From NCBI GenBank assembly GCA_002189035.1, contig CM007989.1, positions 2,480,001 through 2,544,000 on the forward strand: DNA of 64,000 bases, written 5' to 3'. Within the stretch, counting starts at the first letter, position 1. Each line of letters opens with the position of its first letter. This stretch comes from Utricularia gibba (lineage: Eukaryota > Streptophyta > Magnoliopsida > Lamiales > Lentibulariaceae). Shown in pieces: positions 12,407 to 56,994 of the stretch. Under the pieces are notes generated by a model. It was given only the letters and a program-made list of their open reading frames with translations, searched no databases and had not been told where the DNA came from. A program made the position numbers and the translations under genes.

Positions 12407-13761
12407 ATGGGATCTAGTCTCCGGTGGGGTTGTGTATCGCCCGCTTGCTTTTTGGTTTGGCTCGTTTTCATGAGGTCGATAAGTCGCATCTCGGCCCTCT
12501 CGGTGACGGTGAACAACATCGAGTGCGTGTATGAGTACGTGTTGTATGATGGAGACACTATTTCGGGGAACTTTGTTGTCGTAGATCACGATATTTTCTG
12601 GGGCTCCGATCACCCTGGAATCGACTTCACTGTAACGCCTCTCCTCTGTTCGCTTCTGTTAGTGTTTGTTATTTGATTGTTTATTAGAGAACGCCAAGGC
12701 CATTTCCGCTTCCTGTCGATTCTATTCTAGCTGTATGTTTGATGAAGCTTCCAAAAGCTTAGATCTTGTGCTTTAGTTTCTATTCAACTTAAGGTTTATG
12801 ACCAGTTTCTCTGGAAAATATTGTTGTACTGTTCATAGTCTTCTATAAAATCTAACCCTCTATTCTCTGCACTAGTTTTTTTTTTGTCATATTTACTCAA
12901 AACTTCTACTAGTGGCATGGTGGTTGCCTGGCTTAGTGGTAGTATAGGGTGGAAAAGAAGTGGTATCCTTCACTGTAGCTTTGGTGTGTGATTTTTAAAA
13001 TCACTTTTGCACTTTTCTGTGCTGGTGGATGATGTGACTGAGGAACAAAGTCACCTACATGAATATTAGGATAAAGTGTTTTCTCGTCTTGCTGATTTTC
13101 CCTTGTGGAACAGGTCACTTCCCCTGCGGGTGATGCGGTGCACACTCTGAAGGGAACATCTGGGGACAAATTTGAGTTCAAGGCCCCCGGAGTGGAATGT
13201 ACAAATTTTGTTTTCACAACCCGTATTCTACTCCAGAAACAGTTTCCTTCCATATCCACGTTGGCCACATTCCTAATGAACATGATCTTGCCAAGGATGG
13301 TCAGTTTGCAGTGCCATTGTCTTGTTCCACATTTCATAGGTGTCTTTCAAATGGCATGCATGCATTTTACCCATTTCTTGTCCACAATTGTTGGATTTCA
13401 GAGCATTTGGACCCTGTTAATGTGAAAATTGCTCGACTTAGAGAAGCACTGGAAGCTGTTATCTCGGAGCAAAAGTACTTGAAAGCACGTGATGAACGCC
13501 ACCGCCTCAGTATGCTCCCTTTTCCCTTCTGCTCATTTTGTAATCCATTTTCTTCAACTGTTTTAAGGGGTGTGGGGGATAAGAAACATCTTGGCTTGTC
13601 TGTATATATTTGAATCTGTTGCTGCAGCAAATGAGAGCACCGCAATCCGCGTGGTCGGCTACTCGGTGATTGAGTATGTGTTGCTAGCTGGAGTGAGCAC
13701 ACTTCAGGCATTCTACATACGGCATTTATTCAGCAAGTCGATTGCCTACAACCGAGTTTGA
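12407..13761 (+). pseudogene. p24-beta cargo receptor (emp24/gp25L/p24), with a 1-base frameshift
   Basis: Exons: 12407-12631, 13114-13299, 13402-13509, 13628-13761. The protein has a signal peptide, then the lumenal GOLD domain (SVTVNNIECVYEYVLYDGDT, FWGSDHPGIDF, GTSGDKFEFKAP, YKFCFHNPYSTPETVSF), the coiled-coil EHLDPVNVKIARLREALEAV, one membrane span and the short cytosolic tail SKSIAYNRV. p24 proteins cycle between ER and Golgi in COPI/COPII vesicles and help sort cargo. In exon 2 the frame breaks: after KAP (13183-13188) only GG remains where a GGG codon is expected, and the conserved frame resumes at AGT-GGA-ATG (13191). Restoring one base gives 217 residues. All splice sites are intact, so a sequencing error or very recent lesion is likelier than an old pseudogene. 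Confidence 0.88.
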
Positions 13762-15686
13762 AACTAAAGAAAGAAGACGACATACGGCAGAGTAGATGGA
13801 ATATTCTTCATCTCTCGTTCCCAGAAATGTGAGAACATACAGCCCACAATACAGAGCAACCAAGAGGTCAGCCAAAGTGCTGATGCTGCCTTGTAGCCAT
13901 TATCTTGAAAGTAAACGGTAGTGTGCCATGTTGGTCCTTGAGTTTAAGAAACGCGATGCCTGATGTTTTCCATTCTGAGAACTGCTACTAGCTTTGTGTA
14001 TTCAAGCATATAAACCTGCTTCTGCTATGTTTCAGAGAAAAGCCCCAGAGGTGGGAATGGCTTACGCTGGGTTTAACCCAACCCCGATTCAGAAAAATGT
14101 CATCCAACTCAATCAATTAGGAATCAAGTAAGAAAAATAGGATTACCCGCAAATAATTTCATCTACTCTCTGAGGATTTAGCTCCCAGTTTTGCAAGGGA
14201 TGATGACATCTGAGGAGATAGAAAATATTCATAGAATGCAGCTTGTAGCTACTTCCAACCCCCTGGTGCTGATGTGCCTCATGCCTTTCTCCAAGTACAT
14301 GCACTTGTTCATGGAACAATGGACTCAAGTTCCATTTTGTCCGAAGTCGCAAACTCCATACACAAGGAAATATCTACTGACTACTGCCTGCAAGTCTTCC
14401 CCACACACGTGAGCAGCAGAGAAACGTACAACAGGAATGCATTAAGCCGTCCTCGCCAGCGTCTGGCCACTGACCAAATCGAGGGATGACCTAGTTTCAC
14501 TCCCCCTTTCATTCTTCTACGGTTGGTGGAACATACAGTTCACCATGTTGCTCCATCACACCACAGCACCAGGAGAAACAAGAAGGGAAGCTCCCAGCTT
14601 CACTCCCACCTTTCATTCTTATGCTTTCTTTTAAATTCCCTCGTCCCAACAGGCGATGGAGAAACTGTTGAAATGTTCCATCTGATGCTCACCTGCCGGC
14701 ATGGTCAGTAATTCAGATGTACGGTGAATAAGCAACAAGGCATGATCCATTGTTTGGACAAAGATTCAGGCTTCCACCGTTTACTGCCCCCGATAGACTT
14801 GCTTTTGCTGCGGGCTCTTTTACAAGGTTTTGTCATCTGTGATCCTGATAGATGCCTGTGTGCTTCACGGTGGACGCTATTCAGAAGGTGGCACGTAACA
14901 TCACCGCATATTATTGCATTCCATCCATAGCTACAAGATAAGCTATTATAATGAAACCACCTCATTCATTCAAACCGCACTACTCCCCGAAACATATATT
15001 GGGTTGATACTAACATATGTGTATATTTAAATAAAATGTAATTGTATATGTATATACTTAATTATATATAACATTTGATATTCGAATATAGAAGTGAGTA
15101 TATGAATTGTATATATATAATTAGTACCCCTTTATTTGTATATATTCATTTCATTTGAATATGTAAATAATATAATTATACAAGATGGATATACATATAT
15201 TAGTTAATTTAATAATGATATATAATAAATTTAAATATAAATTATCTATACTCTCATATGAGACACCTCCTAAAGCGCACACAACTATATGCTTCTACCA
15301 TGGATGAGTGTGCATAGATTTAAATATATTCGTATTTAAAATATAAAAATGAAATAAATTAAAAATATATACTATTATATTTTTTAATATGTGAAGATAA
15401 AAAGGAATTCGTGGAATATCATATTCTAGTGTCACCCTTAAATTCATGACACCATGTGCCCATCGGGCGTAAACGTGGAGGTTTTTGATTGGCCCACCAA
15501 AAAGAACAGCTCCCAATGTGATCATCATCATCATAAACAACCCCAACCCCGGTGCAGTCCAATGCGGTGTGGGCCCCGCCAAAACCAAAACCAAAACCCA
15601 GCAGCGACATTTTCATTCACTTTTCAGCTTTTGTGGCTGCCGCTGCACCAGTACCACATCCGAATCCTTCATATTCTCGCCGTCGA
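13762..15686. other. Long intergenic stretch, no confident gene
   Basis: From 13762 to about 14000 is probably the p24 3' untranslated region. Open frames near 14190-14700 (plus) and 14143-14965 (minus) are short, overlap each other and resemble no family. From 15000 to 15420 the sequence is extremely AT-rich with TATA and ATAT repeats. The last 250 bases are the promoter and leader of the DUF1645 gene; an in-frame upstream ATG (15552) probably lies in the leader. Confidence 0.5.
15000..15420. repeat. AT-rich low-complexity tract
   Basis: Dense runs of TATA, ATAT and AATA units with almost no G or C for about 400 bases. No terminal inverted repeats or coding remnants are visible, so this is listed only as low-complexity sequence. 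Confidence 0.6.
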
Positions 15687-16771
15687 ATGGCGTCGGCGTG
15701 TGTGAACAACGGCGGGGTTGTGACGCAGGAGATCTTTCTTGACTGTCCGACGGCGAGCAGTATGTGGCGGATCCCGCCGGCGGAGGAAGCGATAAGCGCG
15801 CAGAAGCCGCCTGTGGATCGGGAAGAAGATCTAGATCCGGATATTGGAGGGAGTGAGTTTGAGTTTCGTCTTGAGGATCCGGTGTCGTCCGTGCTCCCTG
15901 CGGATGAGCTTTTCTCCGACGGGAAACTTGTTCCTCTGCAACTCGCCGCCACTCGCCAGTCAAGGGAGGCAGTCTCCGTGTCCGCAGGATCTGACGTCAG
16001 GTCGGAGAGGTCTCAGAAGCGCGGCGGCGGCGGCGGCGGTGGCGATTCGCGGTTTATCTACAGGAAAACGCCGAGGAGCGGGAGCAGGTGGAAAGAGCTT
16101 CTTCGGTTGAAGAAACTTAGCATCGCAACGGAGGATTCGACGTCGTGCAGTCAAAACAGCGCCGCGAGAGCCCTGATTCAGCCTTTCCGTCATCGGAGCA
16201 CCAAATCCTCCATGGATTCATCTCTAACGCTCCCATTGTTACAACAGCAAGCCGACCATAACGATCCACTCTCCACCTCCTCCGGAGTCTCCGTCGACGT
16301 CCTCCCCCGCCTCTCCGTGGACTCCGAAAAATCAATCCCCACCACTACCAAACCCGAGTAGCCAAAAAGAAGGCGGTTACGACCGGCGTCGCCGCCGCGG
16401 CGAATCGTGGTAACCGCCGAGTACCACCGGAATGCACATCCGTACAAGGCGTGGGTGTTTCCATCGACAGTCCTCGGATGAATCCGTCGGGGAAAATCGT
16501 GTTCTACGGGTTGGAAAGAAGCTCGAGCAGTCCAAGCAGCTTCAATGGCGGCCCGAGATACAAACACCGCGGAATAGAGCGCTCGTATTCGCACTCAGCG
16601 AGTCTGCGCATCGCGCCGTTTCTGAATGTCCCCGTTCGGTCGCTGCGGGGAGGAAACGGCACTGCATCTTCCAAATCCTCCACCGTCTTCGGAATTCCGA
16701 TCTTCTCATCCTCATCCCATCACAAGAATCCAAATCAATCATCCGTCAAAGGATCCCGTTCCAGTTCTTGA
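15687..16771 (+). pseudogene. DUF1645 family protein, with a 1-base frameshift
   Basis: Intronless. The N-terminal part (15687 to the stop at 16359-16361) carries the family features FEFRL, ADELFSDGKLVPL and a basic GSRWKELLRLKKL block preceded by an eight-glycine run. The C-terminal part lies in another frame and has the diagnostic block MNPSGKIVFYGLERSSSSPS, then FNGGPRYKHRGIERSYS and a VFGIPIF end. Between them the frame slips by one base; the simplest place is 16357-16360, where GAG-TAG would read GAG-GTA if one G were restored. That gives about 361 residues. DUF1645 proteins are plant-specific and stress-associated, with no known biochemical function. No consensus intron fits the gap, so I treat it as a frameshift of uncertain reality. 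The start is the ATG at 15687. Confidence 0.82.
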
Positions 16772-19649
16772 TCCAGGAGAACCAGCTCGGTAGGTATCTG
16801 CTGCATCCAAATTCCAAAAAAGTTGTGGTTTCAATTTCACGAGAAGCGTATGCCGGATCCAGATGGGGAGTGGAGAGGACGCGCGGGTGGTGAGGGTGGG
16901 GGGAGGTGGCTGGTGTAGATGATAACGAACGTCACTTGTAAAATCTGCCCGCATTAAAATGTTGCTTTTGCAGGATCCCTGAGTTTCGATTTTCAATTTG
17001 TCCAGAAGCACGTGGCTCTCACTCGCTCGTGAACTTGATCTATTTATAATATTTTCCGGCGCCTCCGGTCCGCCACCTTTCGCTTTAACCGTCAACCCAT
17101 GTCGACTCAACCTCCGGCAACTCACACGAATTCCCCGCGGCGAAAACAATAATGCCTATCTTTGCCCCACCGGTTTTCCTGTTGACTTGACGCGCTGTGG
17201 ATCATTGTCCCTTTTTTCCCACGCGGAGCAAACAAAAAAAGAAACAAAAAGTAAGATGTAAAAAAAAAAAAAAAAGGCCCCCATTGTCTACTAAACTAAA
17301 GAAAATCACGAACCAAAAAATTTCCGAATTTTGGCATCCAAAAAATCTAATTTTCGATTCAACTTCTAGAAAGTTCTAAAAAAAATCCGACTTTTGAAAA
17401 TTTCGCGAAATTTAAAACATTACGTGGGAATATATAAACATTGGGCCACAGAATTCGATCCGAAATGGGCCGTACGGTATATTCTCTGTATTGGGCCAAT
17501 AAGTTCCTTACGTAGCCCAAGATACCCATCTATTGACCCGTAATGGGCTGAACCCAATTAGCTAATTTATAAACATTGGGCCACAGAGTTCCTTGCCTCT
17601 TCCAATTCATCTTAGACATAATTTATAATTAAAATCACATTTTAAATTTTTAGAAATAGAATAAATTCAATTGCAAGAGAACACTTACTTTGAACCCTTC
17701 AGGTATTAAGAATAAGGCTATCTTTAGTTCTCGTAATTATTAAAAATTATTTCTAATAAAATATAAACAATAGTTCTACAGTGTTTAAAAAATAAAAATT
17801 TCTCCCATATTTCTATTTTTTAGAATAGTATTTGATAATAAAATTATTTATGAATACTATTTTTTTTTGTCTTTTTATTCTAGATAGAATTTACGATGAC
17901 CAGATTTGCAAAAGACCCAAGGTTATGCAGTGTGGAATGGATAGAGATGTTTGATTTTGGGATCACTATAAACACAAAGCAACAACACGTTAACTGTTGT
18001 TAGTCCAATGGATGAGCAGTTAATTAATCATGGTTTGGAGTCGTAGTCACATGAGCTGCTTTATCATATAGAAATAAAAGACTTCACCACTGGAAGAGTT
18101 CGCATTACGTAACTTGCAGCTCCATCCCCAGATAGATCCCTAGACTTTTCAAAACCACGTGCCTCTATCACCACTCCGTCATTCATTCACTTCCAGCATA
18201 CCTCAAAAGCTGCCCTTAAAACCCTAAACTCATCATTCTGTAGATGGATCCAGCACCAAGAAAGCCTGCCTGTGAGTTGATTGTGCATCTGGGTTAAGAT
18301 ACCAGAAGATGTAATGGAGTAAGGAGATCAGGTACAGTGGCATGGAGTAATGACTTAAATTTTATTTCATGTATGTTGGGACAGTCCTTATAAACTATAT
18401 CGGTTGAAATTAAGAATCCAATAGATCGAACGAACATAAATTAAATTCAAATACAAAAAAAACATAATTTATGTTTAAAAATATTAGATTTAATCGATTA
18501 CTATTAATCTACAATATTTTATATATTCATCTCTCTTTCTATCAATGCCAAGACCTCCTAGGCGATCATACAGTATCTCGGTTGTGTGTTGAGTGGGGTT
18601 GTGATGGCTACCACACAACTTAGGTCAACAACAGTATGGAGCAACACGGTTTCTATAACTATGACTGCCACTCTTCAAACCAAACCTTTGACAATTTGCT
18701 GATACGAAAACCCTATTGCTAAGAACCCTAAACCTGGAATCTAGAATCGATTCCTTCAGTTTTATATAGAGGGTGCCTTCATTTTCATTCAGAATGAGAA
18801 TGAAATAGGGAATGATACTTGTAGAATGACTTGGGAGCACGTAATTAGATGATTACAAAACTGGGGTGTGGTGTAGTGATTGGGAGGAGATAAGGATCCA
18901 TCAAAGTTGATAAAAGTAGCCATGGCTGGTGTGTATTACTATTGGAATTTTGACAAAAAAAAGTGCTGGAATGAGACACATTTACTTTTAAACTATTTCC
19001 CCATGTGGAGGAATCTAATGACACACAATCCCCACTGTTCATGCACAGTGTTTGCTCCTTTCCGTCAAAATGTTTTTGGTGAGATCCAAATCGAGTTCCA
19101 GCTCTGCAAGTCAGTCACCGTATCCAGCCAAGCAATCAAACAGTTCAAGTCTGGTTTCCTCTGTCTACTGCTGTTCCTCAAATCCAGCCCTTTCATTGAA
19201 ATGAAACCCATGTACACACGATCACAGTTCTGATACTCGGTTTGTATTGTAAACCCAACTCTCAGATGGTTCTGTGCACATGGGCTCGTCAAAGTCCTCA
19301 TTTTTCCTGTTCCAAGCTGCACACCTGAGCTTTTTTTATGGTTCCTGAATCTCAGTTGCCTTGTTGGACAAACCGAACTCAGTGGATGGGGTGCAATATG
19401 TGACTGCAAGGGGGTGATATACTTAAAAAGAAAAAAACGTTTAGTTATATTTTTGTAATAAGAAAAGTGGTCTTAGGGTTCAAGAGTTGGACCACATTGA
19501 AAAAAGATAGTTGCATTAGAAGTTGGGTGTGTGGTCCATTTCGCTGGCTGGGGATTGAGGCGTGTATCTATATAAAGAAGACAACGTGGGTGCGACTGCA
19601 TTCTAGTTCATCCAGACGACTGCTGTCAAGTCAATACGCAACTCCGTGG
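16772..19649. other. Long intergenic region between DUF1645 and NAC genes
   Basis: No conserved coding sequence on either strand. It contains a 16-A run near 17257, a cluster of TGGGCC/TGGGCT motifs at 17433-17591, and two AACCCTAAA telo-box-like motifs near 18220 and 18727. Short open frames at 18880-19409 overlap on opposite strands and look like chance. The motif cluster suggests a promoter whose transcript I cannot identify. Confidence 0.5.
17433..17591. promoter_or_regulatory. Cluster of site II (TGGGCY) motifs with a 24-base direct repeat
   Basis: TGGGCC or TGGGCT, or its complement, occurs at about 17442, 17467, 17493, 17515, 17544 and 17577. A 24-base unit containing AAACATTGGGCCACAGA occurs at 17433-17456 and again at 17568-17591 with one difference. 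Such clusters mark TCP-bound promoters of housekeeping genes in plants, but no gene start is recognisable within 1.5 kb. Confidence 0.5.
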
Positions 19650-20661
19650 ATGGGAAGCTTGAGCGCGGTGGAGGAACGGCTGCCGCCGGGGTTCCGGTTC
19701 CATCCGAGAGACGAAGAACTCATCTGCGACTTCCTGGGGAAATGGGTTTCTGGGTGCGCCTCTCAAACCGCTCATTTGATCCAAGTCGATCTCAACAAGT
19801 GCGAGCCCTGGAATATTCCAGGTAAACCACAGGCGTCTAGTCTACTGGAGGGTTTTACCATCTTTCTTGACTCTGAATTTTTATGTAAAGCAGAAAGTGC
19901 ATGTGTGGGAGGGAGAGACTGGTACTTCTACAGTCCGAGGGACCGGAAATATTCAACCGGGATACGAACCAACCGGGCGACGGAGTCCGGGTACTGGAAG
20001 GCCACAGGAAAAGACCGAGCCGTTTCCCGGAAAGGAGTCGTCGTCGGACGGCGGAAGACGCTAGTGTTCTATCAAGGCCGGGCACCCAAGGGCCGGAAAA
20101 CCCAATGGGTCATGCATGAGTTTCGTCTCGAGCACCAGCTCTCTGCTCTGCCCCCAGATTTCACTCCTCCCCAGGTTTGAACGCTTAATTTTTTTTTTTC
20201 CTGAATTTCCATGTAAATACTCATTTCCTTTTCCTTTTATAAAATATTGAATTTCTGTCAAATTTTTGTCTCAGCAGGCAGACTGGGTTTTGTGCCGAGT
20301 CTCCTACAAGAGCAGATCGCCGTCTTCTTCTTCATCGAAAAGCAAGCTTGATTCTTGTTTACAGCTTGAGCCGCCATTGTTGGATTTGGGGCAACAGTTT
20401 GTCTTCGATCAAGCGATGCCGTTCGGTTTCGAGCAAGTGCCCTGCTTCTCCATTTTTCAGACGCCGATGAACCAGCCGCGGGACAACCGCCGGGAAATGC
20501 TTCCCGATTGCTGCTATGGAAACGCAACGTTTTCCAACGAAGGAAGCTCCCTGGGGGCTGGAGCCTTGAATCGATTCACCGGAATGGAGGCTTTTACCAG
20601 CATCCCCGCTCTGGGGGCGGCTACATGTACTGAAACTGGACATGTATTTTTCTGTCCATGA
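19650..20661 (+). CDS. NAC domain transcription factor (NAC1 / NAC21-22-like), miR164 target
   Basis: Exons 19650-19821, 19894-20174 and 20278-20661, giving 278 residues. The NAC subdomains read [14 protein letters not shown] (A), [16 protein letters not shown] (B), [20 protein letters not shown] and [10 protein letters not shown] (C), and [12 protein letters not shown] (D), then [11 protein letters not shown] (E). This is a nuclear DNA-binding and dimerisation domain. The C-terminal region is the variable activation part and contains the peptide EQVPCFSIF, encoded by a miR164 target site. Members of this clade act in auxin-dependent lateral root development. Intron 1 is only 72 bases, divisible by three and free of stops. 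The exon 3 acceptor is a tandem CAGCAG, so Q may be inserted or skipped. It converges on the FAD oxidoreductase gene with 71 bases between stops. Confidence 0.94.
20432..20452 (+). promoter_or_regulatory. miR164 target site in NAC mRNA
   Basis: The 21 bases starting AGCAAGTGCCCTGCTTCTCC match the known miR164 target in NAC1/CUC/ORE1-type genes, pairing with the miRNA UGGAGAAGCAGGGCACGUGC family with few mismatches. The position, in the coding sequence after the NAC domain, is also as in those genes. It implies post-transcriptional cleavage. Confidence 0.9.
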
Positions 20662-20732
20662 ACCTGTCTTTCATGTAACTAGGCTTGTTTAAAGAATCTT
20701 CTTGTGTACAATGAATCTACTGGTAAACGGAG

Positions 20733-22712
20733 TCACATTTTGATGAACTTGGAAGCGGCAGCAACACCACTGGATATGGCAGATTCCACGTTTGGCCCTA
20801 CGCAAAAGTCTCCACAGATTGACAGCTTCTTGTTCCCAAACCACAGGCATTTCTCTTCTCCAGCAACGGCAGCTGCAGGGAAAGCGCTACCCCTGAAAAG
20901 AAAACGAGATCGCGTTATCGAATCAACGAGTTCATGGCCCGTTGAATTTGTCATCTCAACTATCTCAGGAAGGAAGTTGAGGTGTGAAAGGACAAGTAGA
21001 TACTGACCATCTATGAGCTTTCATGAAGAATGGCTTTGTAGTGCAAAGACCGGTGCTTTGGAATTCTCGAAACAGATCCTCAGCTACTTTTGACAACAAG
21101 GCATCAGAAGGCTTCTGGAATCCTGTCTGAGATATTACAAGTTCTGAATGTTCTGCTGTGGAATGTAGAACCCAACGTTCACTATACAACAATGAAACTG
21201 AATTAGGAATGACCACCACAAATAGTTGCTGTTTTTTCAATGGCATCACATGTCATTTACTAGTAGTAACAACAACCTAGTCGTTGGACGCCCTGGCTTG
21301 CTGCTATCACAGAATGCCCACTTTAAAGCTTTTGAATTCTTGAACAATAAGCCTTTCCACGGCATCTGAACCATATAAGACAGAATATTTGATTTCGAAT
21401 ATAGAGACAGGAGCCACATAAGAGACCAAGCTCACTAGACCATAAAAATGAGATGGTAAAAGGCATGGGTTGGATGTAAACTCTTTGTGGTTCCATGCAT
21501 GACTTGAGTATTCATCGCTCTCCATTTTTATGCTAGGAAAACTATTTAAGTAACACTGGGGTGCTTATAGTTACCTCGAAAAGGGGCTGTTCAAACGCCA
21601 GCATAAGTGCAAAGCATGGTATGACAGGAATTTCTTTTATCTGCAGGGCCACGTTTGCGGACATCAAGTCTACATTCATAACATTGCATTGAGATGCTGA
21701 GTTTTAACACCAACATCCGTAACATTGGTGTTTGTGGATCTTATAACTCTCTTTTTCAAATTCAAGGTTTCAATTAGTCAAAGCCTTTATACCAATAGGT
21801 GGAGGCTTTCCAGTCACTTCAGTAAACCTAGATAAAAATGTGTTCTTGTCCGATGCAACTACTCCATCGAAACGACCAACATCTTCTCCCACTGAACTGG
21901 TCAGTGACCACATTCCTTCATCTTCCAGCCAATCAATCTTACCGATCCCAATTCCGAATCTGCTCTCAACCCCTAACAGAGCAATGTACTGAGCAACTGG
22001 TGAATTAGGTAAAGAAATATGGGAGGCTAAAATTAGATACCAGGATCAAGGCATAATGCTTTGCAAATGGAGTTCATTCCTGGCACACCAACATATCTCT
22101 TTCCATGATCCTCCTGGATTTAGACTAGTATGCTTTTCATGTTCAAGCTAAGATCCCAACAGAGCAGATTGCAAATGACAACGAATTGATCATATCAAAC
22201 CTCCGATAAAGGGGAAAACTTTTTGGTGAAGAAGTCAAAAGACCCAAAACTTTCTTTCCACTCTGCAACAAGACCTCTTGCTTTCCATTCATGTACTAGA
22301 CTCTGCACCTCCAAATTGGTATCGTTTACCGTAAAATACGGTGCACCGTGATCGAAAACAAGCTCGCGCCCATCGTCGGAATGCTCTCTGGCATTCCAAA
22401 ATCGAACTCAGCCTAACCGAAACTTGAAAACTGATTTCAAAGTATTATATCACGAGCAACCATATTTCAAACCTCCGTTGAGACATGCGGCCACCTGGAC
22501 CTCTAGCCGACTCGAAAATCGTGGCGGATATTCCATTCTTGGCCAAAATCGACGCACATACAGCTCCAGAAACTGCACAACACCGAAACCCTAAAATGTA
22601 ATTCACCGAGAATCATCCCATTGATCAAAGCTAAAATTTCACGGGAAGCATTGAAAACTTGGAGCTCACTCCCGCTTCCTATAACGGCGACCTTCGAAGC
22701 AACACCTTCCAT
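20733..22712 (-). CDS. FAD/NAD(P)-binding oxidoreductase, renalase/amine-oxidase-like
   Basis: Nine exons, minus strand: 22712-22670, 22572-22473, 22387-22201, 22113-22041, 21972-21793, 21669-21575, 21365-21277, 21181-21008, 20892-20733; 366 residues, in frame throughout. The N-terminus is a Rossmann dinucleotide-binding fold (VAVIGSGISGAVCASILAKN, with the GxGxxG split by intron 1), then GPGGRMSQRR and ELVFDHGAPYFTV, typical of renalase-like flavoproteins. Later blocks are GRFDGVVASDKN, RWVLHSTAEHSEL, FFMKAHRWGSAFPA and the C-terminal FAD-binding block ICGDFCVGPNVESAISSG. Plant orthologues exist as single genes; their substrate is not established. No signal or transit peptide is visible. Its 3' end faces that of the NAC gene at 71 bases. 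Confidence 0.9.
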
Positions 22713-24186: not shown

Positions 24187-26386
24187 ATGCCATCCAACGG
24201 AAGCCCGAGATCCATTTTCTCATCAATGATGAATGATAACACGGTAGCAGGAGCACTTGGTGAACCAGTTGTAGATAAAAACCAGCCCCAGTTTGAGGGG
24301 AGAACTGGCTCTGGTAAAACTGATGAAAATGAAACTAGCATTAAGGATAGTGGAGAAATCGAATCAAATGCATTTTCAGAGTCTCGTGCAAGCTCACGAG
24401 GGAATCTTGTGAAGAGAATGGCCACCAGAGCTGGTACTAAAGCTCCAAGATTGAATACTCAAGGTATCGGACCACCTGATATTCCTGACACTTCAGATGG
24501 CCAGCCAAATTTTCTGATGACTATTCCTCCCGGTCTTAGTCCAACAACACTTCTGGAGTCCCCAGTTCTCCTTCATAACTCACAGGTGACTTACACAGTT
24601 TCCATGGAAGAGGAATGGGTTGTTCAATGTGTAAAATGTGATGATTTTTAAATACTGTGACTGAGTTTTTCTGTAGCTCATGCCTTCTCCTACAACTGGA
24701 AAATTTTTCTTCCCACCATTTGGAAGCGGTTGTAGTTTGGCGCCTATAGTAGATAAAGGCCAGGAGAATTCGTTTCATGATAGCTCATCCTTCACTTTCC
24801 AACCTACTGCAGAATCTGGACCTTTGCTTTACCATAATTCCGCTAATAAAGTAAGTACTTTATGCTTAGAAGTTCATTGATTCTTGTTATATGATATAAT
24901 AATGAAATTACCCCCTTTTCGTGTAACATGGAGATGGATTCATCATTGCAAGTGATCTTTGGCAAGTTAGACAGTGCTTGGAACTGATCAACTAAAACTC
25001 CTCTTCACTGAATTGTCTTGGCTTTGCTGCTGATCTTTGTGTTGCTTTTCTGATGATGAGGTCAAAAATTTCAGGGCCGCGACACTGATATGGGTCTGGT
25101 CCCTGTTCATGCAGGAGACTCGAATCCTCAGGAGTCTATAAGCAATGAGTATTATGCAAAATCACTTGGTGAAAAGCCCAGCAACAATGGCACCTCAGAG
25201 ACTTGTCAGGATGAGAATGGGATCAGTACTGCGGTGATCCTAGTGGAAGTCCATGTGATGATGAACATGGTTGGAGAAAATTTGCACAGAAGCAAGTCAA
25301 GGGAAGTGAACATCCTATGAATTACAAATGCACACATGAAAAAAATTGCGCTGTCAAGAGGAAAGTGGAACCTTTTCAAGAGGGAGACATCATACAGACA
25401 GTCTACGATGGCACCCATAACCATTCAAAATCATTGCCTAATCGCAGGGACACGAGTCAGCATGATCCCAGCGTTAACCGTGATCTTGCAAGGTCAACTG
25501 CCCACAAGATGAATACCATCCCACAGGAACACAGCAATGGCTGTGGCTCACAATCTCAAGCTCAGGTTGAACTTGGAGATGGTTTGGGTGGTTCATCTGC
25601 TTACTCAAATGATGAGGATGATGATCGTGCTATGGGAGGCGAAGGGGAGGAGTTGGATTCAAAGAAAAGGTATGCAGTTTTTGTGGCTTAAGTTCTACAA
25701 GTGATATGAAGGTAACATCTGAACTATGTGCAGGAGGCATGAAACTTCTTGCATCCCAGATTTGAGTGTGATCAACAGGGCGGTTGTTAGGGAACCAAGA
25801 GTTGTCCAAACGACAAGCGATGTCGACATACTAGACGACGGATATCGTTGGCGCAAGTATGGACAGAAGGTGGTGAAGGGAAATCCAAACCCAAGGTTCA
25901 CTGAATCCACCTCTTCTTGCCTGCATTCCTTGTGTGAAATCAAGGGGACTAATCGGGAGATCATAACGCAGGAGTTACTACAAGTGCACCAGCCCCGGGT
26001 GCAATGTAAGGAAACATGTGGAGCGGGCTTCTCATGATCTCAAGTGTGTCATAACTACGTATGAGGGTAAGCACAACCATGATGTCCCGGCGGCGAGAAA
26101 CAGCAGCCACAACTCTGGAGGCTTGAACAACCAACAACCTTCTCCGTTGGCTGTTTCAGGCGGCGTTCACCGGCTGGAGCTTTCTCATATCCTTGGTAAC
26201 TCAGCGTGTTTCAGACAACCGGAAACAGGTTCATATGGACTATCAGGAAAGCCCCAGATGAATGCAGGTCCAATGTATGGTTTGGGAGGACTGAACCAGC
26301 CTCCGCATGTTGGACTGCCTGGTCTCCAAAAGTTACCATTACTGCATCCTTACTCAGGAAGCCTGCCTCCACCAATGAATAGATGA
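24187..26386 (+). pseudogene. Group I WRKY factor (WRKY2/20-like) with frameshift and degenerate N-terminal WRKY domain
   Basis: Exons: 24187-24585, 24677-24850, 25075-25669, 25734-25895, 25972-26386. N-terminal family blocks are SPRSIFSSMM, RAGTKAPRLNTQ, LMTIPPGLSPTTLLESPVLL and SPTTGKFFF. The C-terminal WRKY domain is intact: [40 protein letters not shown] and the HNH end, with the conserved intron after the PR codons. The N-terminal domain reads WRKFAQK instead of WRKYGQK, lacks the RSYY segment and has CX5C instead of CX4C. A single base is missing near 25236, where GCG-GTG-GAT is expected, shifting the frame just before that domain. No ATG stands at the usual family start; homology begins at about 24145, so M at 24187 is the first usable one. 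With one base restored the gene encodes 581 residues. Confidence 0.85.
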
Positions 26387-40237: not shown

Positions 40238-40303
40238 TGGGTTGCCAACATTTCGTCAATGGACCAACGCTAACGAAGGATCTAGAAACCCTACTCTGGT
40301 TTC

Positions 40304-40312: not shown

Positions 40313-40415
40313 GTTCCTTGCTCGTCGTGGCCGTGTATCCTGCGCTGCTCCGTCTGTTCTGTAGATCCGTCTTTCGAGCGTTCCAAGAAGCGTTATACTG
40401 GTTCAAGCGGTGGCT

Positions 40416-46257: not shown

Positions 46258-47711
46258 ATGGCGGCGCCTAACAGATCAAGGTTTTTTCTTGAATTGGTGT
46301 TGCAAGTTTATGGTATTTTGTTTTTGAGGGGTTTATTTACTCTGTTTTTCGTCACGCTGTGGATGAACTTATCAGAGGAGGGTTAAGCACGAGGCCCGCA
46401 GCATATGGCGGTAGTTCTAGTTCTAATGAGATTCAGTTGCGGATTGATCCAATGCATTCAGATCTCGATGAGGAGGTGACGGGCCTTTACAAACAAGTTA
46501 GAAAGCTCCGAGATGTGAGTAGTTTCTCTATTTGTCGTAGTGTTTGTTTATGACTGGAACCATGTGCAATAGACGTTTTTTTAATAAGGTTAGAATCAAA
46601 ACCTGATCTTTCTGCATTTGAAAAAATATACGACCTTTTGAACTGGTTTTTTTGTGATTTACGCATATCTTACAAGTCATTAAGAATCTTTCGATTTGTT
46701 AATGATATGCATTTTCCATCCCAAGATATAAAAATGGAGTGTTTGAACTTCTCTAACATTGGCTTACTGCATATTTCGTGCAAATAAGTTGAATACTAGA
46801 GACGGAAAATGTACAGTAAAACCGTGTCCCCCTTGCTATGAATGCAGGAGGCTAGCCTGTTGTTAAAACAAACTTAGGCTGTGTCGTTCATGACCCCAGA
46901 TCAAAGAAATTTTTTATGTTCTCTTATGCATGTTAATGTGTTCTGGCATGCTATTTTCCTATTTCCTTCCAGCCTCATGTTTACGCAATTTTTCCTGCAA
47001 ATATTCTTATTTTAATATCTGTATGTATCTCTTATTTTACTCTGGGACCATGTGGTTTGATGTGCTAGCAATTGAACAAACACTTCGTTAAGTTCATTCA
47101 TACTCTTGTTGCCATAGAATGTGTACCTGGCACTTGAACTTACTCAACGTCGTGTTTTTATGTGAAAACTTTCCTTCTGAAAATATCCTTGCGCTGATTT
47201 TATCAGTGTATCTCAATGTAGTATTGAGTTTTTATGTTCGTTTTTTAGCTGTCACAGTTGCAGGAGTAAAGGTGAACCAAGTACTGGTAGCCCTTGGGGC
47301 AGTAACTCTAATTTTGAACCTGCATGTTGTGCATGCTCTGTGAGTTTCAGATCATCAGCATCTAGATTCATTAACGTCTCTCTAAACACGCTGCAGGTAG
47401 CTCAAGAAATAGGGGTAGAGGCAAAGTTCCAAAACGATTTCCTAAGTCAGCTGGTATGCAATAAACCCCTCCCTTCTGTATCCAAACAGCATTCATCAAT
47501 TCCCATCTATTCGTTTCTCTGAAGCACCCCTTCTTGCTTGAAACAGCAATTGACACTAATAAAGGCTCAGGCTGGAGTAAAGAACAACATGCGGAGACTC
47601 GGGTTGAGTGATATCAAAAGCGGATCAAGCCATGTCATGCATGTGGTTCTGTTTGGGCTTCTACTCTTTTTTGGTGTCTATTTTTTGTCCAAGATCTTCA
47701 GAAGAGGATGA
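46258..47711 (+). CDS. Bet1-like Qc-SNARE
   Basis: Exons 46258-46280, 46376-46514, 47397-47453 and 47547-47711; 127 residues. Exon 1 encodes only MAAPNRS plus part of an Arg codon. Conserved blocks are EIQLRIDPMHSDLDEEVTGL, VRKLRDVAQEIGVEAKFQND, LTLIKAQAGVKNNMRRLG, then a C-terminal membrane anchor VMHVVLFGLLLFFGVYFLSK and the tail IFRRG. This matches the plant Bet1-like proteins of the At4g14600 type, tail-anchored SNAREs of ER-Golgi transport, normally about 130-140 residues. The Gln of the ionic layer falls within the coiled-coil region as expected of a Q-SNARE. Intron 2 is long (882 bases) for this region and T-rich, and nothing else was seen in it. Confidence 0.92.
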
Positions 47712-48516
47712 AACAAGATCATCTCTGGGGGTTATGGCTGCGTGCCCTTGTGAAGAATGGTGGAGTATGTGGTACCGTTTAGATACAGAAAGACTCACTC
47801 GACATGGACAATGCTATCAAGGAGAAGCATGTCTTCTTCACCTTGATGAATGTGCGCCAAGCACATTGTACACATGGTGTCTATAACATTAGGAGTGTGA
47901 AGGCAATACCTAATTGATGCTGAATTGATACGGTTTATCAGCTACAGAATTATAAAACTTAATCTGCAAATCCTAAGAATGATGGCTGGGATTCTTTGCA
48001 TTTGCCTCAGACGCTGAAAAAGTGTTTAAACCTCGCTTCTCATGACTACAGAAATCGGTATGAATTCGGTATGATCATCTGGGTGTTGCGTTCGGCGTTC
48101 GCAACGTGAAACTGCAGAAATTGAGATCGTTTTTAAGTTGAAGTTTGTTTCTTTTGCGCTGCAGTATCTTGTACGTGAAACAGGTGAGAAGATTGTTTAC
48201 TTTTTGTCCGTGTTGAATGTATGTACGTTGGTTTGTCTATTAAGTGTTCGAATAAATGTCTCAGAGGTATTCTCTTCGCATTTTACGAGTTGTATATCAA
48301 CATAGCTCCGACGTTTCCTTCTTTGTGCATTTCAGTATTCGCTCTCATCAAGTTTTCATCTGGGGATCTGAATTTCAGCCACTTTAGCTGTTGACTCATT
48401 TTATTGCTTTACAAGTGTTAATGATTTTACTGCTGTTGTATTGTTTCAAATGTTGAGGTGGGCACCGTTTTTTTTTTTTTTTCTCTGCAAGGGAAGTTTA
48501 AGGAACAAACGTAGGC
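47712..48516. other. 3' region of Bet1-like gene and promoter of PORR gene
   Basis: No conserved frame. A 19-base T run ends near 48481, just before the PORR start. No other feature was recognised. Confidence 0.5.
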
Positions 48517-49770
48517 ATGATACCTGGCTTTCAACCGAAATGCCAGGAACTTGGGTTGTTGTGTGTGAAGGGTTCATATGTCGTGAGACATAGAGGCCGT
48601 TCTTTGTGGTCAATGAAGAAGGAACCGGATCTTGAGATAGCTTTGTCTAGAAACCACAGATGGATTTTAAATAATCAGATTAAAAACATAATTTTGAGGT
48701 GTCCGGATCAAGTTGCTTTGGTCGAATTCCTCCAGAAGAAACTCAAGAGCCTCGGTGTACAGGGGAAGGCGCTTAATTGGCTAAAGAAATACCCTTGCTG
48801 TTTTGAAGTGTTCCAGGAAAACGATCAGTTTATGTGTGGATTAACAAAGCAAATGAAGTTTCTGGTTGAGGAGGAAGAATCAGTCAAAGATCAGCAGGAG
48901 CCAGTTTTTGCAGAACGACTGGCCAAGCTGTTGATGATGAGCAAAAACAGGAGGCTAAATGCTCTCAAAATCAATGAATTGAAGAGAAACTTTGGATTTC
49001 CTGATGACTATCTGCTAAGAATCGTGCCCAAATACTCGGACATGTTTCGTATCATTAACTACACAGGGAGAAGAAGTTCAATGGAGATTGAACTTACTTA
49101 TTGGAACCCAGATTTTGCCATATCAGCAGTTGAAAAATCATCAGCAAAGAATGGATGTCAACCTTGTTTCTCATGCTCACTGCCACCAACTTGGGTGAAA
49201 TCATGGGAGAAATTTCGAGACTTCAATTCTTCTAAATATATTTCTCCTTATACTGATATTGGGTCGCTGGTTGATGGATCAGTTGAAATGGAAAAAAGAA
49301 CAGTAGCTCTGGTACATGAACTACTCTCATTGACTTTGTGGAAGAAGGTCTCAATTTCCAAATTATGTCACTTTAGAAGAGAGTTCTGCTTCCCGCACAA
49401 TCTGAATGTTCTGCTGCTCAAACATCCCGGAATTTTCTATGTATCAAACAAGTATCAGATGTACACCGTTCTTCTTCGTGAAGGATACAATGGTTCGGAG
49501 TTGATTGAGAAGGACCCACTTGTTGTTGTGAAAGACAAGTATGGGGAACTGATGCAGCAGGGGCTTCATGAATACAACCGCAGGCATTATCTGATGAACT
49601 TGGAAAAGAAGAAGGCGAAGAAGGAAATGACTGTAACAACCCCCATACTGAAAGGAAACCACATCGACACTCAAGCGCAACATGATCAAGGAGGTGATTT
49701 GGGTGGCATATTTGATCCTGAAGAGAGGAAGCGGTTTTACAAACTTCTTTTTGGTGATGACTCTAAATGA
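48517..49770 (+). CDS. PORR domain (DUF860) organelle RNA-binding protein
   Basis: A single exon of 417 codons. The plant organelle RNA recognition domain begins around residue 30 with KEPDLEIALSRNHRWILNNQ and continues through the repeats LNWLKKYPCCFEVF, LNALKINELKRNFGFPDDYL, YSDMFRI and FCFPHNLNVLLLKHPGIFYV, ending with LLREGYNGSELIEKDPLVVV. The N-terminal 25 residues contain several basic and no acidic residues after the first turn, as in a mitochondrial or plastid presequence. Known PORR proteins (WTF1, WTF9, RPD1) promote splicing of organelle group II introns. Which introns this one serves cannot be told. The C-terminal tail is charged and variable. Its stop lies 99 bases from the stop of the convergent transporter gene. 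Confidence 0.93.
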   Translation: MIPGFQPKCQELGLLCVKGSYVVRHRGRSLWSMKKEPDLEIALSRNHRWILNNQIKNIILRCPDQVALVEFLQKKLKSLGVQGKALNWLKKYPCCFEVFQENDQFMCGLTKQMKFLVEEEESVKDQQEPVFAERLAKLLMMSKNRRLNALKINELKRNFGFPDDYLLRIVPKYSDMFRIINYTGRRSSMEIELTYWNPDFAISAVEKSSAKNGCQPCFSCSLPPTWVKSWEKFRDFNSSKYISPYTDIGSLVDGSVEMEKRTVALVHELLSLTLWKKVSISKLCHFRREFCFPHNLNVLLLKHPGIFYVSNKYQMYTVLLREGYNGSELIEKDPLVVVKDKYGELMQQGLHEYNRRHYLMNLEKKKAKKEMTVTTPILKGNHIDTQAQHDQGGDLGGIFDPEERKRFYKLLFGDDSK

Positions 49771-49869
49771 ATTTCTAGTCATTAATCTGAAATGATAAGG
49801 GGAAAGCAAACGGTAGCCAACTGAATCAGTGAGCATCCTCTTGTTTATATTACAATGGCTAGTCTAATC

Positions 49870-51684
49870 TCAAAGTATACTTGAATCGTCTTCTGCCAGA
49901 GGCATCTCTTCATCTTCATTGGTTTTGGCTTTCATAGTAGGCAAGGTTTGGCCTGGATCATTGGCACTTTCCTCCAGATTCTTTAGATTGAGCGAAGTGT
50001 ATACTGACATCCCAAAGAGAGCAATGACAGCACCACCGATGCTCAAAAACCCCGGATCAGACGCGAAAAGGAAGTATCCTCCTAGCAGGATCACACATGT
50101 CTTAAATTGTCCTAGAACCACATGGGATGTAGCAGAAGTAGCCCTGCACCAGTAGAGATCAAGGGTTAAATTTTGCATTGTGCGTGCGTGTAGCTTGTAG
50201 AGGATGGAGTTCCATACCCCAGTGCTAAGGCTCCGGACCACTGCAAGAGAAAACCAAGTAGAGCCGAGATGAAGATAGCTGAGATATTTGTTAAATCCCA
50301 CTTGAATGTCAGAACTCCGGGGGGATCTAACCAAGGCATGAGGGCTAACAAAAAGAAGATTGTGATGGGAGTAGTCTTCCACATCAACCTGCATTGGCAA
50401 ACACTAATGCTTCATGATACAATGGTATCAGCAATAGGAGGAATGTATTGATTAATGCTTCCTGACTCACGCAAGGGCTGTCCAGTTTCCTTTCTGCTGC
50501 AGGTTAGACCACAATATTTTGTTTACAGCACTTGGAATTATCCATAGCACAGCTATGCAAGCCCCATATGTGTTGAATTCTAAGTCGGTAACAGTTGCAA
50601 TGGCCACACCAACTGAAACTACAACCAGAGTGACAACCTGCGACCATCATAATGAAGTCACTATATGCACACAAATGTGTGAATCTGTGAATTCAATGGA
50701 GATAGGATTCTGTCACCTTGCTGAAAGATGTCTTCTTTCGGAAAAGCAAAAACTCGGCCATGACGATGGTCGGGGTGACAGCAATTTTGGCCATCTGGTA
50801 AAAACCAACGCTGTATTTGAAGAGCAATGCGAGAAGTTGGATTGAGTTTTCACAAAAAAGGAGATGATTACAGAACAAAAGAGGTTAGAGTCTGGAGATA
50901 TATGTACCTGTTGTGCTTTAAGCTGGTGTTTGCAAGTCCGGAAGAGAAAGACATCACCACACCTAAAGCAAAGAGCGACGAATAGGGAGTGGATACGGAT
51001 GGAGGAGATATGGGGAGCATGGAGCACCACTTGAGAATGGCCAGTAGAAACCAAGCTGTTACGTAGTGGATCAGCGTGAGAAATATTGGGTAATTGAAGC
51101 CTACTTTCCCCATCACCTGTTGTTTCACCGCCAAGATCAGATGAAGAACAGGAACTTACTCAAGGAACATTGGAAACCACATACCAGTTTGTTCCCAAGA
51201 ATGATTCCTACAGAAACCATAAAATTGAATGCCATGGCCATGGCTGGTCCACAGTACTGCTGCTGTAAGCGCCTGGCTCCATCCGACGTCCGCAAGTCGT
51301 TATAGAGAGACCCTCTGAGATCCTCCAAAGCACGGGCTGCAGAAAATACAGTGAACCTGATTCAAAGAGGGTACTCCACATTCATTTAAACGAGGCAAGA
51401 AGAACAATTCTCATTCATATTCCAACCCAGTTACGACATTTCTTACCTTTCAGGTGATCAAACCAGAACAAAATCATTCATATCTACAAAGATGAACTTT
51501 TGCAGGATCTCAAGATGAAAATTCAAATGACCATTCAACAGTCTCAGAAGCTGTAATTCATTCTAGTGATGATACCTCAGGGGCCATGTGAAACAGAATT
51601 ACTACCTGTTTCGCTTGCATCACTGTCTTTTCTCTTTATAAAACTCCTGCCATCTTTTCCATGTATGAAAAGCGAAATCCCCAT
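49870..51684 (-). CDS. Nucleotide-sugar transporter, DMT/TPT-NST family
   Basis: Seven exons, minus strand: 51684-51606, 51336-51185, 51116-50908, 50810-50717, 50637-50471, 50388-50218, 50143-49870; 381 residues. A hydrophilic N-terminus of about 50 residues precedes roughly ten membrane segments. Family blocks are FMVSVGIILGNKLVMGKVGF, PIFLTLIHYVTAW, SLKHNSVGFYQMAKIAVTPT, VSVGVAIATVTDLEFN, ATSATSHVVLGQFKTCVILL and GAVIALFGMSVYTSLNL. The VGFYQ and VLG-KTC motifs are typical of plant Golgi nucleotide-sugar antiporters. The transported sugar is not evident; sequence is not close to the UXT or URGT groups as I remember them. The acidic C-terminal tail faces the cytosol. The start was chosen at the ATG in exon 1 that keeps phase with exon 2. 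Confidence 0.88.
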
Positions 51685-52299
51685 GAGAAATTCCTGTTTG
51701 GAGAGCAATGAAATAAGCAGCAGTGTATTCCTCTAGATTCCAGCGGTATCATACATGGTCGAAACCTACCTGAGGTGAAACACTAATCGAATTTAAAGGG
51801 TCGATCACATGACCCTCAAATGTGATAAACCTGAAGGCTATGATGCAAATGTGTAAGAGTGAATCCAAATCCGAAGGAGGTGAAAAACCCAAACAAACCT
51901 AAATATTTTGTGAACCCAAATATCTCCAAGTTTGTTGGTCATGGCTCTTTCGGTTAGAGTTCAAAGATTCAGAGCACTTTTCATGCACATATTTACGTTT
52001 ATTTGCGCTCTTGCTGTTGGTGGTATCGTCTCATTTAAAAATAAATAAACCATCTTTACCAATAAACCAAAGTGCGGTTGAGCCAAGGAAAATAAACAAG
52101 AAAAACTTGATATTTGTTGTGCACAAACCAGGCGGTGGTCCTTACAGGCAATAAAAGACAACCACAACGACACATGTTTGGGTGACAGGGTGATGCGGGC
52201 AACTATACTCCATTCCCTCATTAAAACAACGGCATGTGGCACATCGAGATCAATTTCAACAACAAATGGAGCATTTGTATTCATGAACAAGCCTCTGAA
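51685..52299. other. Promoter of transporter gene and 3' region of CWC15
   Basis: No conserved coding frame; the longest minus-strand frame (51961-52290) overlaps the CWC15 stop in another frame and is a shadow. Confidence 0.5.
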
Positions 52300-53840
52300 T
52301 TACTTCATGTACTTCTGAAGGAACTTTCTGTGAAAATCGTTTCTGATGGTGTCGTTGATAAAGCGCTTGGGAGTTTTTGTCTCGCCGCGAGCCTGGTTCT
52401 TGAAAACCACATCATCATCCCACCTGCATGGAATCAAGGGGAAAATGTGAAGAGTGAAAACAAAGTTAACAGGATCATGGATACGGAAGCCAAGTGAAAA
52501 GAAATTTCATGTTACCTTCTCTTCACTCCAAAGGAAGTTGGATTGTTCATCAGCGGGTTACCATGGAGCAACTGCTCTTCTTTAGCTTTCAGCTCCTCTT
52601 CTTGCCTTTGTCGTTCCTGCCAACAACAGTATCCATGATTTTAATATCAACCATTTGAATTCTAAGTAGCCGATATCAATGCAATTAATAAGGTCCAAAA
52701 CATTTAACTGTCTACGAAAACTGGTAATTCAACTTCCACACCAGACACTAAACATAATGGCCTGGGTGCCAGTCCCATTGTTTTGGTTTTTACAGTAGCG
52801 ATTGAGAAGGCAACATTGGATGTCAATCAAAAGGCACATGTCCTGGGATCAAAAGATCAAAAGACATGTTCTTTCATCTTCTAAGAAACTACAAATCAGA
52901 AGATGTAAAGGCTTTCCGTATATCAAACAGAAAAATTAAACAAATCGGCACTCGGTGATATTCAGCAGAAATACTCCAGGAAACCACCTGAATGAACTAG
53001 TACATGACTAAAAAGATCTTACCTCTCGTTCTTTCTGTTCCGCCTTTTCTTTTTTCAGGCGTTCAAGCTCAGCCAAAAGTGCTTCTTCATCATCACCATC
53101 ATCATCATCATCTTCATCATCATCGCTGACAAGAAAGCAACAGAATCAGTAGAATTACCAGTTTAAACAAAAAAAAATGACGAAATATTCGCTATCAAAG
53201 CAGTTTGAGGAACAGGGCACCAACCTATCAGCAATATGAGCGTCTCCATCAGCATCATCAACGTCTACACTGCGTAAAACAAGCCGATCTGGGATTTCTC
53301 CCTTAGACCCTGCATAGAAAAAACGCGTATATGATTAAGAACAGAGTTAATCCAATGAATTTTTTGGAAGATAATTTCGATCATCATTTACCTTCCAAAA
53401 AAAGTTGGCCACCTCCCTTTCGTCGCTCTCTGTCCTCTATACCAAAAAATCGAGCGATATCAAATATCATTGAAACAAACACGACAATAAAAAAAACTTT
53501 AAATTCGTTTAATTTGAATTATGAACTAACCCTTAGATGAAAAATGCCTCCTCTCACGATCCTCCAATTCATCTCTCAGATTCCTCTTATGCAGCTCATC
53601 TTGCGTATCTTGTCCATCTCTTCTGCACAAAGCCACGCTCAATTGTCATATAAACGTTAAAAAAGATCACAACCAGGCTGAAAATCAACAAAAAGTAAGG
53701 AAACTCTACCGGGGTTTTAAGGTCGTATGGGAAGCGATATCCCTAGACGAATACTTCTGCGATTGACCGAATATACGAGCGCCACCTTGCTCGTTTCCAC
53801 CTTTCGCCGGTGCCCAGGTTGGCCTAGCTGCAGTAGTCAT
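52300..53840 (-). CDS. CWC15: CWC15 spliceosome component
   Basis: Seven exons, minus strand: 53840-53710, 53622-53531, 53436-53392, 53309-53225, 53125-53023, 52616-52516, 52423-52300; 226 residues, the usual length. It starts [20 protein letters not shown], continues with [20 protein letters not shown] and [13 protein letters not shown], has an acidic Asp run in the middle (encoded by GAT repeats at about 53093-53125) and a Lys/Glu coiled-coil, and ends with [39 protein letters not shown]15 is a core protein of the Prp19/CDC5L-associated complex (NineTeen complex) in the nucleus, required for pre-mRNA splicing. All splice junctions keep frame. Confidence 0.96.
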
Positions 53841-54311
53841 ATCCGAACCCTAAATCGTTCAAATCTAATCTGCAACAGAGCCAAAAACCTAGATCAGTCA
53901 CAGAAACCGCTCAGGAAGCGAAGACAAGCCAACAAGAAAGAAAACGAACAGATTAGGCCGCGTAGAATCGATTTCAGGCAACACAAAAATAGCAACACAG
54001 AGAAACGAAAATTAGGTTAAATTAAGAAGGAACACTGTACAACGACGCCGTTTACCTTTGCCCTTTTCACTTGTTTCCTTCAAGTAGAACGACGTCGTAC
54101 GCATTAAGAATATCAGGATTTTATATTTATTTCCCCAATACTATTCTCCACGAATTTCTGATTCTTTCTGAATCTTTAAAATTTCGCATGGATAAAATTC
54201 TCACAATATAAAATATTTAATCAATTTTTTAACTTAATAAATTCAATCTTGCCATAAAAAAACAATAAATTTATTTTATTAGGGATTGAAAACAATGTCT
54301 GTCTTTAAGGC
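53841..54311. other. CWC15 leader and promoter; 3' side of beta-glucosidase
   Basis: Non-coding. Two CGTCG-containing motifs near 54040 and 54090 flank the likely CWC15 leader. The remainder is AT-rich. Confidence 0.45.
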
Positions 54312-56994
54312 TCACGTGGCAAGAAAATAAAACAACCGGACATATTGATCTGTTAAGGAATCAGAATCAATCTTCGGCACCCAAGCGATTCTCCTCCTCC
54401 TGATTCTTGCCAGGTCATTCTGCTCGTCGATCTCCCTGTCCCTCGCTATCTCAATCATCTTCTTCTTCCCCTTCAAGAACTTGGCGAACCAGACAGCCGA
54501 CTCCTTGGGGTACCTCGTCAGGTTGTTCTTGTAATCAATGTACATGATTCCGAATCTCGCCGAGAATCCTTCCGTCCACTCGAAGTTGTCGCAGTAAGCC
54601 CACACAAAGTAGCCCCGCACATCCACCTTGTCCCTGCAGTTTCAGACACCAGGGTAAGGTAAGGCTCCCACTAACCGTCTTCGTTTCGGAATTCGACATC
54701 CTGCGTTTAGGGGGAGGGCTTACTTTACGGCTTTGAGAAGATAGGCAAGGTGGTCTTGGTGATACTTTACTCTGGCTGGATCAGACCTGGCCTGTCTGAG
54801 TGTCAGCTTGGGATCGTTCCTGTCGGAAGTCCCTGCAAAGAAGATCGCTAAAGCAGATCGGTTATGGTTCCCTGAAGTGAGTTGGATGATCTTCGTGGAT
54901 GCTGAAAGGGTACCGTTTTCGGTGATGTACACGGGAGGCAGGTCTTTGTATGTGTTCTTCAGGTAGACCAAGTGCTCGTACAGCCCCCATGGGACACTGT
55001 ACAGCCATGAGGAACCCGACTGCAGAGCAGAGCAAGCATACAAATGCTATTATTACCCCCAAGTCTTTTAGAAATCACGATGAAGTGAAACTGAAACTTA
55101 CTGTTCCTCCAATTAGGTTGCCACTTCTTGAAGCTGGGGAAGAAAACACACAGTCAATCATATGTAAAGAAAAGCCACATTGAAGATATTCGTGAGAGCA
55201 TACATGAAAATGTGAGCTTCTGATGCGCATCATAGCCTTCCCCCTGAAGGTCTGGTGCATTAGCGACATAGTTGGTGGTGTAGTAGTTCAATCCCAGAAA
55301 ATCGATCGAGCCCTTGAGCATATGGGACTCATGGTGTGAGAAATGGGCCAGATTCTCCGGTGGGACGTATTCCGTCATCGACTGCGGGTAACGGCCGTAT
55401 AGCACCGGCTCCAAGTACCTTGTAGATCAATCAACCCAACCATTCATGACAAAGGAATGTTACTAGTTTTACAGTATGTCAATCAGTCACCTACCATCCA
55501 AGCATAAAGTCGATGGCTCGCTTTACTGCAGCTTTGTCATCCTCGGAGTTGGGGTTCTGGGGGACGTGCCAATGCGAATTACACACGATTCCTATCTTCC
55601 CTTCCTGGAAAACCTGAGACACCAACAGCATTTTCACACCAAAAAGCTTATTCTAATTAGTAACATGCGATGAAGCTAATGGCTAACCTGATACTCGGTT
55701 CTATACAACTGAACTGCAGCGGAGTGGGCAAGTAGCATGTTCTTTGCAGCAATGTAGGCATTGGATTCAGGGTCGGATCGATCGAGGCGTGCGTCGGAGC
55801 GGCTAGGCTTGGGGACAGCCGCCACGGACTCCTTCACCATCCTGTGACTAGGGAGATTGTTCACGGCCCGGTCGGCGGTGGTGGTAGGCCTCACGGCGGG
55901 GAAAACGCCGGTGACATAGTTGTTAACGTTGTAAGTCCATGGCTCGTTAAACGTGGTCCAGAACTTGACACGATCACCAAACTCCCAGAAGCAGACTTCT
56001 GCGTACTCCGGAAGTCATCTCTGCACGGAATAATAATTCATTCATTAACAGGCAGAAATTCTAATGCCCAGAACACCATAGCCTCTCTTTCTTACACTAT
56101 CTTCTTGCTCAGAAATCCTTGGTACTCCTTCTGCAGGGCATCGGGAATGTCCCAGTGGAAGAGAGTGGCGAAGGGCTGCAACCCTGTGGAAAGAAGGCAA
56201 AAAGGATTCCGTCACCGGAGACATCCAACATAACCGTCGGAGAGCATGAGGGATGCGGTGCCCAACCCGATGCGATCACCGTGTCTATCAGCTCATTGTA
56301 ATAGTCAATTCCTTCTCTGTTGATCCCCATGGACGCTCTTCCACCTATCACCCGCCACGTGTTAATTCGAAATACTTATTTCTTGTAATAGGTGTTAGAA
56401 ATAAATGCGCTGTCGAGATATTATTGGTTGCTGACCTGGCAGGATTCTTGTCCAGGCGATGGAAAATCTGTACGAATCGAAACCCATCTTCTTCATGTGC
56501 GCAATGTCCTCCTGCAACCAATTAAAACGCAGTATTTTCTCATAATTTCTCTGCTTTTTTAAAAAAAAATAAGTAAAATAAATTATACTCGCCTTGAATC
56601 TATGATACATGTCACATGCCACGTTTCCATTGGACCCATCAGCGATTATATCTGAAAGAAAAATAATATAAAATATTATTATATGCCAATAATTTCATGC
56701 GAGGAGGAAGAGAGAGAATGAGAAGAGTGACTTGGCGTATTGAGGGTCATGGTATCCCAAGTGCTCAGGCCTTTGCCTCCCTGGCTGTAAGCTCCTTCGA
56801 CCTGCGTACATGGAACCACAGCCATTCAAGCTCCGCCCAAGCGGCGACGGCGAGCGGGGATCGAGGCGTACCTGGTAGGCGGAGGTGCCGGTGCCGAAGA
56901 TGAAGTTGGCCGGGAAGTCGGTCCGGCTGATCTCGCTGTTGTCTTGGTCGGCCGGAGTCGCGGGAACGACGGCGGAAGCAGATGCAGAAGCCAT
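54312..56994 (-). pseudogene. GH1 beta-glucosidase, 13 exons, with a 1-base frameshift
   Basis: Exons, minus strand: 56994-56872, 56801-56732, 56651-56593, 56511-56436, 56344-56267, 56183-56096, 56020-55688, 55613-55495, 55418-55204, 55133-55102, 55019-54914, 54832-54724, 54633-54312. GH1 landmarks: [51 protein letters not shown], the acid/base TFNEP, LGLNYYTTNYVANA and the nucleophile YITENG, then [12 protein letters not shown]. In exon 7 one base is missing near 56004-56007 (CGG-AG-TAC where CGG-AGT-TAC is expected). Restoring it gives 576 residues. There is no secretory signal peptide, and the C-terminus is rich in Lys/Arg with a block RIRRRR, reminiscent of the nuclear-targeted glucosidases of alkaloid and secoiridoid defence. 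Intron 3 uses a GC donor. Substrate unknown. Confidence 0.86.

Follow-up and report, generated by a model that had tools for sequence, protein, structure and literature searches.

Single-base deletions in homopolymers are a described error of long-read consensus sequences. The HGAP_3/Quiver consensus of E. faecium ATCC 700221 contained 561 of them in about 3 Mb (PMC4888979). Like the breaks described here, false frameshifts that mimic pseudogenes and stem mostly from homopolymer indels have been reported for Kastor (PMC12007338) and for Plasmodium PacBio assemblies (PMC5964635). The assembly of Utricularia gibba was built with HGAP at 88x (PMC5793159), and no mention of short-read polishing of it was found in a search that did not extend to the genome paper (10.1073/pnas.1702072114). 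The plant assembly analyzed here (100.09 Mb, 516 contigs) appears to derive from PacBio long reads and is consistent with that HGAP assembly. Within it we studied a stretch of 64,000 nucleotides (G000:C1:2480001-2544000), hereafter the window, in which a preliminary description had noted four genes that each lack one base.

Each gene was read and spliced with one unknown base (N) allowed per break, the exon readings served as input for Pfam domain scores, and the break was compared with a duplicate in the same genome; recurrence of the lesion was then sought in unrelated families. All four genes (Table 1) indeed showed a single break, located inside an exon and amounting to exactly one base fewer than the intact copy, and the splice sites flanking all four breaks were good on reading, as had been claimed. 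The frame closed with one base to the end of the p24, DUF1645-like and WRKY genes and over the affected segment of the beta-glucosidase gene, and no second lesion was seen in any of the four on reading and splicing. DNA searches located intact duplicates for all four: a copy of p24 and a GH1 paralogue on contig C414, and copies of the DUF1645-like and WRKY genes on contig C321, about 6 kb apart and ordered as in the window, which suggests a duplicated block. The neighboring HSP90, PORR, Dof, NAM and DUF868 genes of the window have conserved, long domains without breaks. From the sequence evidence set out below, we estimate a probability of about 0.95 that the four frameshifts would be errors of the assembled consensus.

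Table 1. Coordinates of the four interrupted genes and their missing-base sites, numbered from the first base of the window.
Feature	Position	Strand	Details
p24 (EMP24/GP25L) gene	12407..13761	+	exons 12407-12631, 13114-13299, 13402-13509, 13628-13761
p24 missing-base site	13184..13190	+	CCCCC (13184-13188) then GG, one base short
DUF1645-like gene, intronless	15687..16771	+	upstream ORF and downstream ORF separated by the frame break
DUF1645-like missing-base site	16353..16355	+	AAACCC, one base short; C4->C3 fits
Group I WRKY gene, five exons	24187..26386	+	24187-24585, 24677-24850, 25075-25669, 25734-25895, 25972-26386
WRKY missing-base site	25219..25221	+	AATGGGATC (AATGGG), one base short; G4->G3 fits
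Beta-glucosidase (GH1) gene, multi-exon	54312..56994	-	GH1 profile matches exon by exon, C1:2534465-2536526
Beta-glucosidase missing-base site	56008..56011 (+ strand numbering)	-	TTC-CGGAG, C or G run 3->2 fits

The p24 gene as written loses its frame after '...KFEFKAP', and with one N it yields a 217-aa protein that scores 159 bits against Pfam EMP24_GP25L (cut-off 25.9). Aligned with the intact copy on C414 (GCTCCTCGAAGT), the window reads GCCCCC-GGAGT. The preliminary description had placed the gap at 13189 and repaired GG to GGG; it had the right run region, but the loss of one base from a run of six C would fit best, because the intact copy reads GCT CCT CGA AGT (A-P-R-S) and the GGG repair would yield A-P-G-S. 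Past the break, 22 of 23 residues are the same as in the copy, with seven synonymous changes, and by this comparison the downstream part is strongly constrained. Between the p24 and DUF1645-like genes lies a repeat of ~270 bases (15004-15273), with about 38 more copies in the genome at 68–77% identity; it is MITE-like in size and spread.

At the other three sites base runs were likewise present nearby, as had been described, but the placements had been about 3–15 bases off. The DUF1645-like gene, whose name is weakly founded (Pfam DUF1645 16.3 bits, below the cut-off of 25), stops as written at '...TTTKPE*'. Its intact copy on C321 (AAAGTCCGGCTAGCG) reads AAA GTC CGG CTA GCG and aligns with AAA-CCCGAGTAGCC in the window, which moves the gap away from the repair of AGT to AGGT at 16359 to the junction of AAA and CCC; the stretch past the break is too short or diverged to gauge constraint. 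The WRKY gene loses its frame after '...CQDENG' and with one N contains two WRKY domains of 64.7 and 94.3 bits. Here the intact C321 copy (AATGCGGATCAG, AAT GCG GAT CAG) aligns with AATG-GGATCAG, so that the gap falls in AATGGG and not at 25236, where GTGAT had been restored to GTGGAT. The beta-glucosidase gene loses its frame after '...KKIVDDF'; its affected segment reads through with one N, aligning as TTC-CGGAGTAC with the GH1 paralogue on C414 (TTCACGGAGTAC), and solved plant GH1 structures have DDFREF or DDFCEY at this position. The repair of GTA to GTTA (56003-56005) loses the conserved 'EYA' and scores 92.8 bits against the GH1 profile, compared with 97.7 bits for our reading; past the break the sequence is again too short or diverged to judge constraint. 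Since the written repairs were wrong at three of the four sites, the G/C-run context that the sites share had remained hidden.

The preliminary description also proposed looking for the same bias in other conserved genes. Pentatricopeptide (PPR) repeats are 35 codons long (105 nt), so a frame break in an array reveals its own sign. In about 70 PPR genes on many contigs, comprising 116 kb of arrays, there were seven clean breaks one base short (L009, L053, L068, L070 twice, L077 and L084) and none one base long; one locus was doubtful (L067), and three (L022, L054 and L069) were excluded because they were unclear or had several lesions. At all seven, adding one base was better than removing two. 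These breaks were placed only to within 10–20 bases, and several of their contexts are without a long G/C run.

GRAS, HSP70, KCS and UGT genes, likewise spread over many contigs, were examined where abutting profile matches lie in different frames: the net shift was exactly -1 at 16 such junctions, and no junction had a shift of exactly +1. The 17 junctions that were read held 18 deletions, placed by conserved residues, and all 18 touch a G/C run. Among them, C7 became C6 four times in GRAS genes (L087, L090, L091, L094), G7 became G6 at L096 and L104, the HSP70 deletions read ATC CC-ACG and AGG -GAGTC, and a KCS deletion reads ATGGG-TGC within the motif GMGCSAG. Two cytosolic-type HSP70 genes (on C451 and C496) are broken inside the near-invariant IPTKKEQ and APRGVPQI. 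One set of Gly-Gly-Pro-Pro codons, in which G/C runs are almost unavoidable, is the site of the break in GRAS genes on C375, C142, C1 and C244, and a GRAS gene on C2 breaks nearby; independent real mutations would hardly be expected to produce a break shared by so many paralogues.

Altogether 29 breaks were read, 4 in the window and 25 elsewhere, and each was a one-base loss; no clear one-base gain was among them, although L098, a GRAS locus that resembles a pseudogene, may hold one. All 22 sites localized by conserved residues or intact copies touch G/C runs. The observed G/C run was at least 3 bases long at 19 of these 22 sites, whereas such runs hold 4.9% of the bases in sampled coding sequence. 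This contrast is to be read as an order of magnitude only, as placement within the codon was partly chosen and G/C runs seem more frequent in GRAS genes than in the PPR genes sampled. GRAS domains (47 kb) had 13 losses and PPR reading frames (145 kb) had 7, while 4 were read in HSP70 and KCS together (57 kb); overall, the sample has ~1 per 10,000 coding bases, and roughly one GRAS gene in four looks broken. Over 359 kb, G/C runs of at least 7 bases were seen 5 times against about 11.6 expected from a second-order Markov model, a shortage that is suggestive only; A/T runs of at least 8 bases were above the expectation of the same model.

Several loci were set aside. An intron was rejected as the cause of GRAS breaks where two matches overlap or abut, whereas the break of one GRAS gene (C4:1155502, L089) is an intron, that at C1:1229491 is likely one, and a candidate PPR break (L074) also turned out to be an intron. 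An HSP70 gene present on both C304 and C241 (L101 = L102) was left out, as +2 and -1 were not separable there. Its two occurrences (C304:2235549-2237462 and C241:16598-18511) have identical match scores, 101 of 101 identical bases and the same frame break, and C241 (31 kb) is probably a redundant contig. The GRAS locus with the possible C gain (C414:3443952-3445017) also has an in-frame TGA and was rejected as pseudogene-like. Together with two PPR loci (L069, L054) and GRAS loci at C3:261182-262252 and C244:2105347-2106219, it forms a set with mixed stops and shifts, and these multi-lesion loci look like genuine pseudogenes.

The pattern thus supports the earlier suggestion of a systematic consensus error in place of four pseudogenes, because the changes are losses only, occur in the context of G/C runs, recur across the genome and have intact copies. 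In the proposed process, the consensus step would drop one base from a G/C run about once per 10,000 coding bases of the sample, apparently more frequently in genes rich in such runs, and the four genes of the window would each carry one such shortened site. The plant's own DNA would then have the longer run; the four frameshifts are almost certainly not biological, and the four genes are most likely intact in the living plant. Against this reading, real slippage likewise favors runs, and some of the runs are short (2–4 bases).

The alternative that survives best, which we consider unlikely, is that one gene, most plausibly WRKY or beta-glucosidase, is a recent true pseudogene, redundant to its duplicate, while the rest are consensus errors. 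All four genes of the window have duplicates, and multi-lesion pseudogene-like loci do exist in the genome (L069 and the GRAS loci on C3 and C244). The N-terminal WRKY domain (window 25240-25410) has moreover diverged in frame: it has WRKFAQK for WRKYGQK and an altered Cys spacing, three bases have been lost and three gained relative to the C321 copy near the first zinc-ligand cysteines, and over 32 codons 10 of 12 differences lie in non-synonymous codons, a stretch too short or diverged to judge constraint. Because of this divergence, WRKY is the least secure of the four and, if any single site were genuine, could be the most plausible one. Against a single pseudogene stands the finding of one lesion per gene, of exactly the type of the genome-wide artefact, in genes with intact splice sites and ends.

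Far less probable is that all four are real frameshifts, acquired as a small genome rapidly lost genes. The Lentibulariaceae genome has reportedly shrunk through the deletion of redundant genes (summarized in PMC10663240), but real mutation would have to have produced the same one-base loss in G/C runs, and not once a gain, in HSP70 and KCS genes and in roughly one GRAS gene out of four, and would have to be reconciled with the near-identity of the p24 protein beyond its break. Genuinely shortened G/C runs in the DNA of many conserved genes, with the frame restored by programmed frameshifting or RNA editing, are extremely improbable. The breaks that recur at a single GRAS motif could resemble a conserved slip site, but the duplicates can be read without any correction, the reading frame runs uninterrupted through that motif in many GRAS genes, and the sites have only G/C runs in common.

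Consensus error as the preferred reading carries a warning for users of this reference assembly. If the rate holds throughout its 100 Mb, errors of this kind would number around ten thousand, and before a gene is called lost or truncated on the basis of a single one-base deletion in a G/C run here, accurate reads or cDNA are needed. The truncation of U. gibba DCL3 was considered as a possible victim of the artefact and rejected, as its authors verified it by RNA-seq and 5' RACE (PMC8333044).

The lesion is most likely a known technical artefact. With ordinary unitary or duplicate pseudogenes it shares a frameshift within an otherwise recognizable gene, but it differs from them in having no mixture of lesions and in its genome-wide bias to the loss of one base from a G/C run. 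The Plasmodium PacBio errors lie mostly in long homopolymer tracts, whereas the runs here have 2–7 bases, and the main Kastor examples are from nanopore data and include insertions, whereas no clear insertions occur here. The closest parallel is the HGAP/Quiver consensus of E. faecium. Its errors were proven by Illumina reads, whereas our case is built on reading frames and duplicates, with localized sites that favor G/C; both nevertheless show single-base homopolymer losses, at ~1–2 per 10,000 bases, from the same type of assembler.
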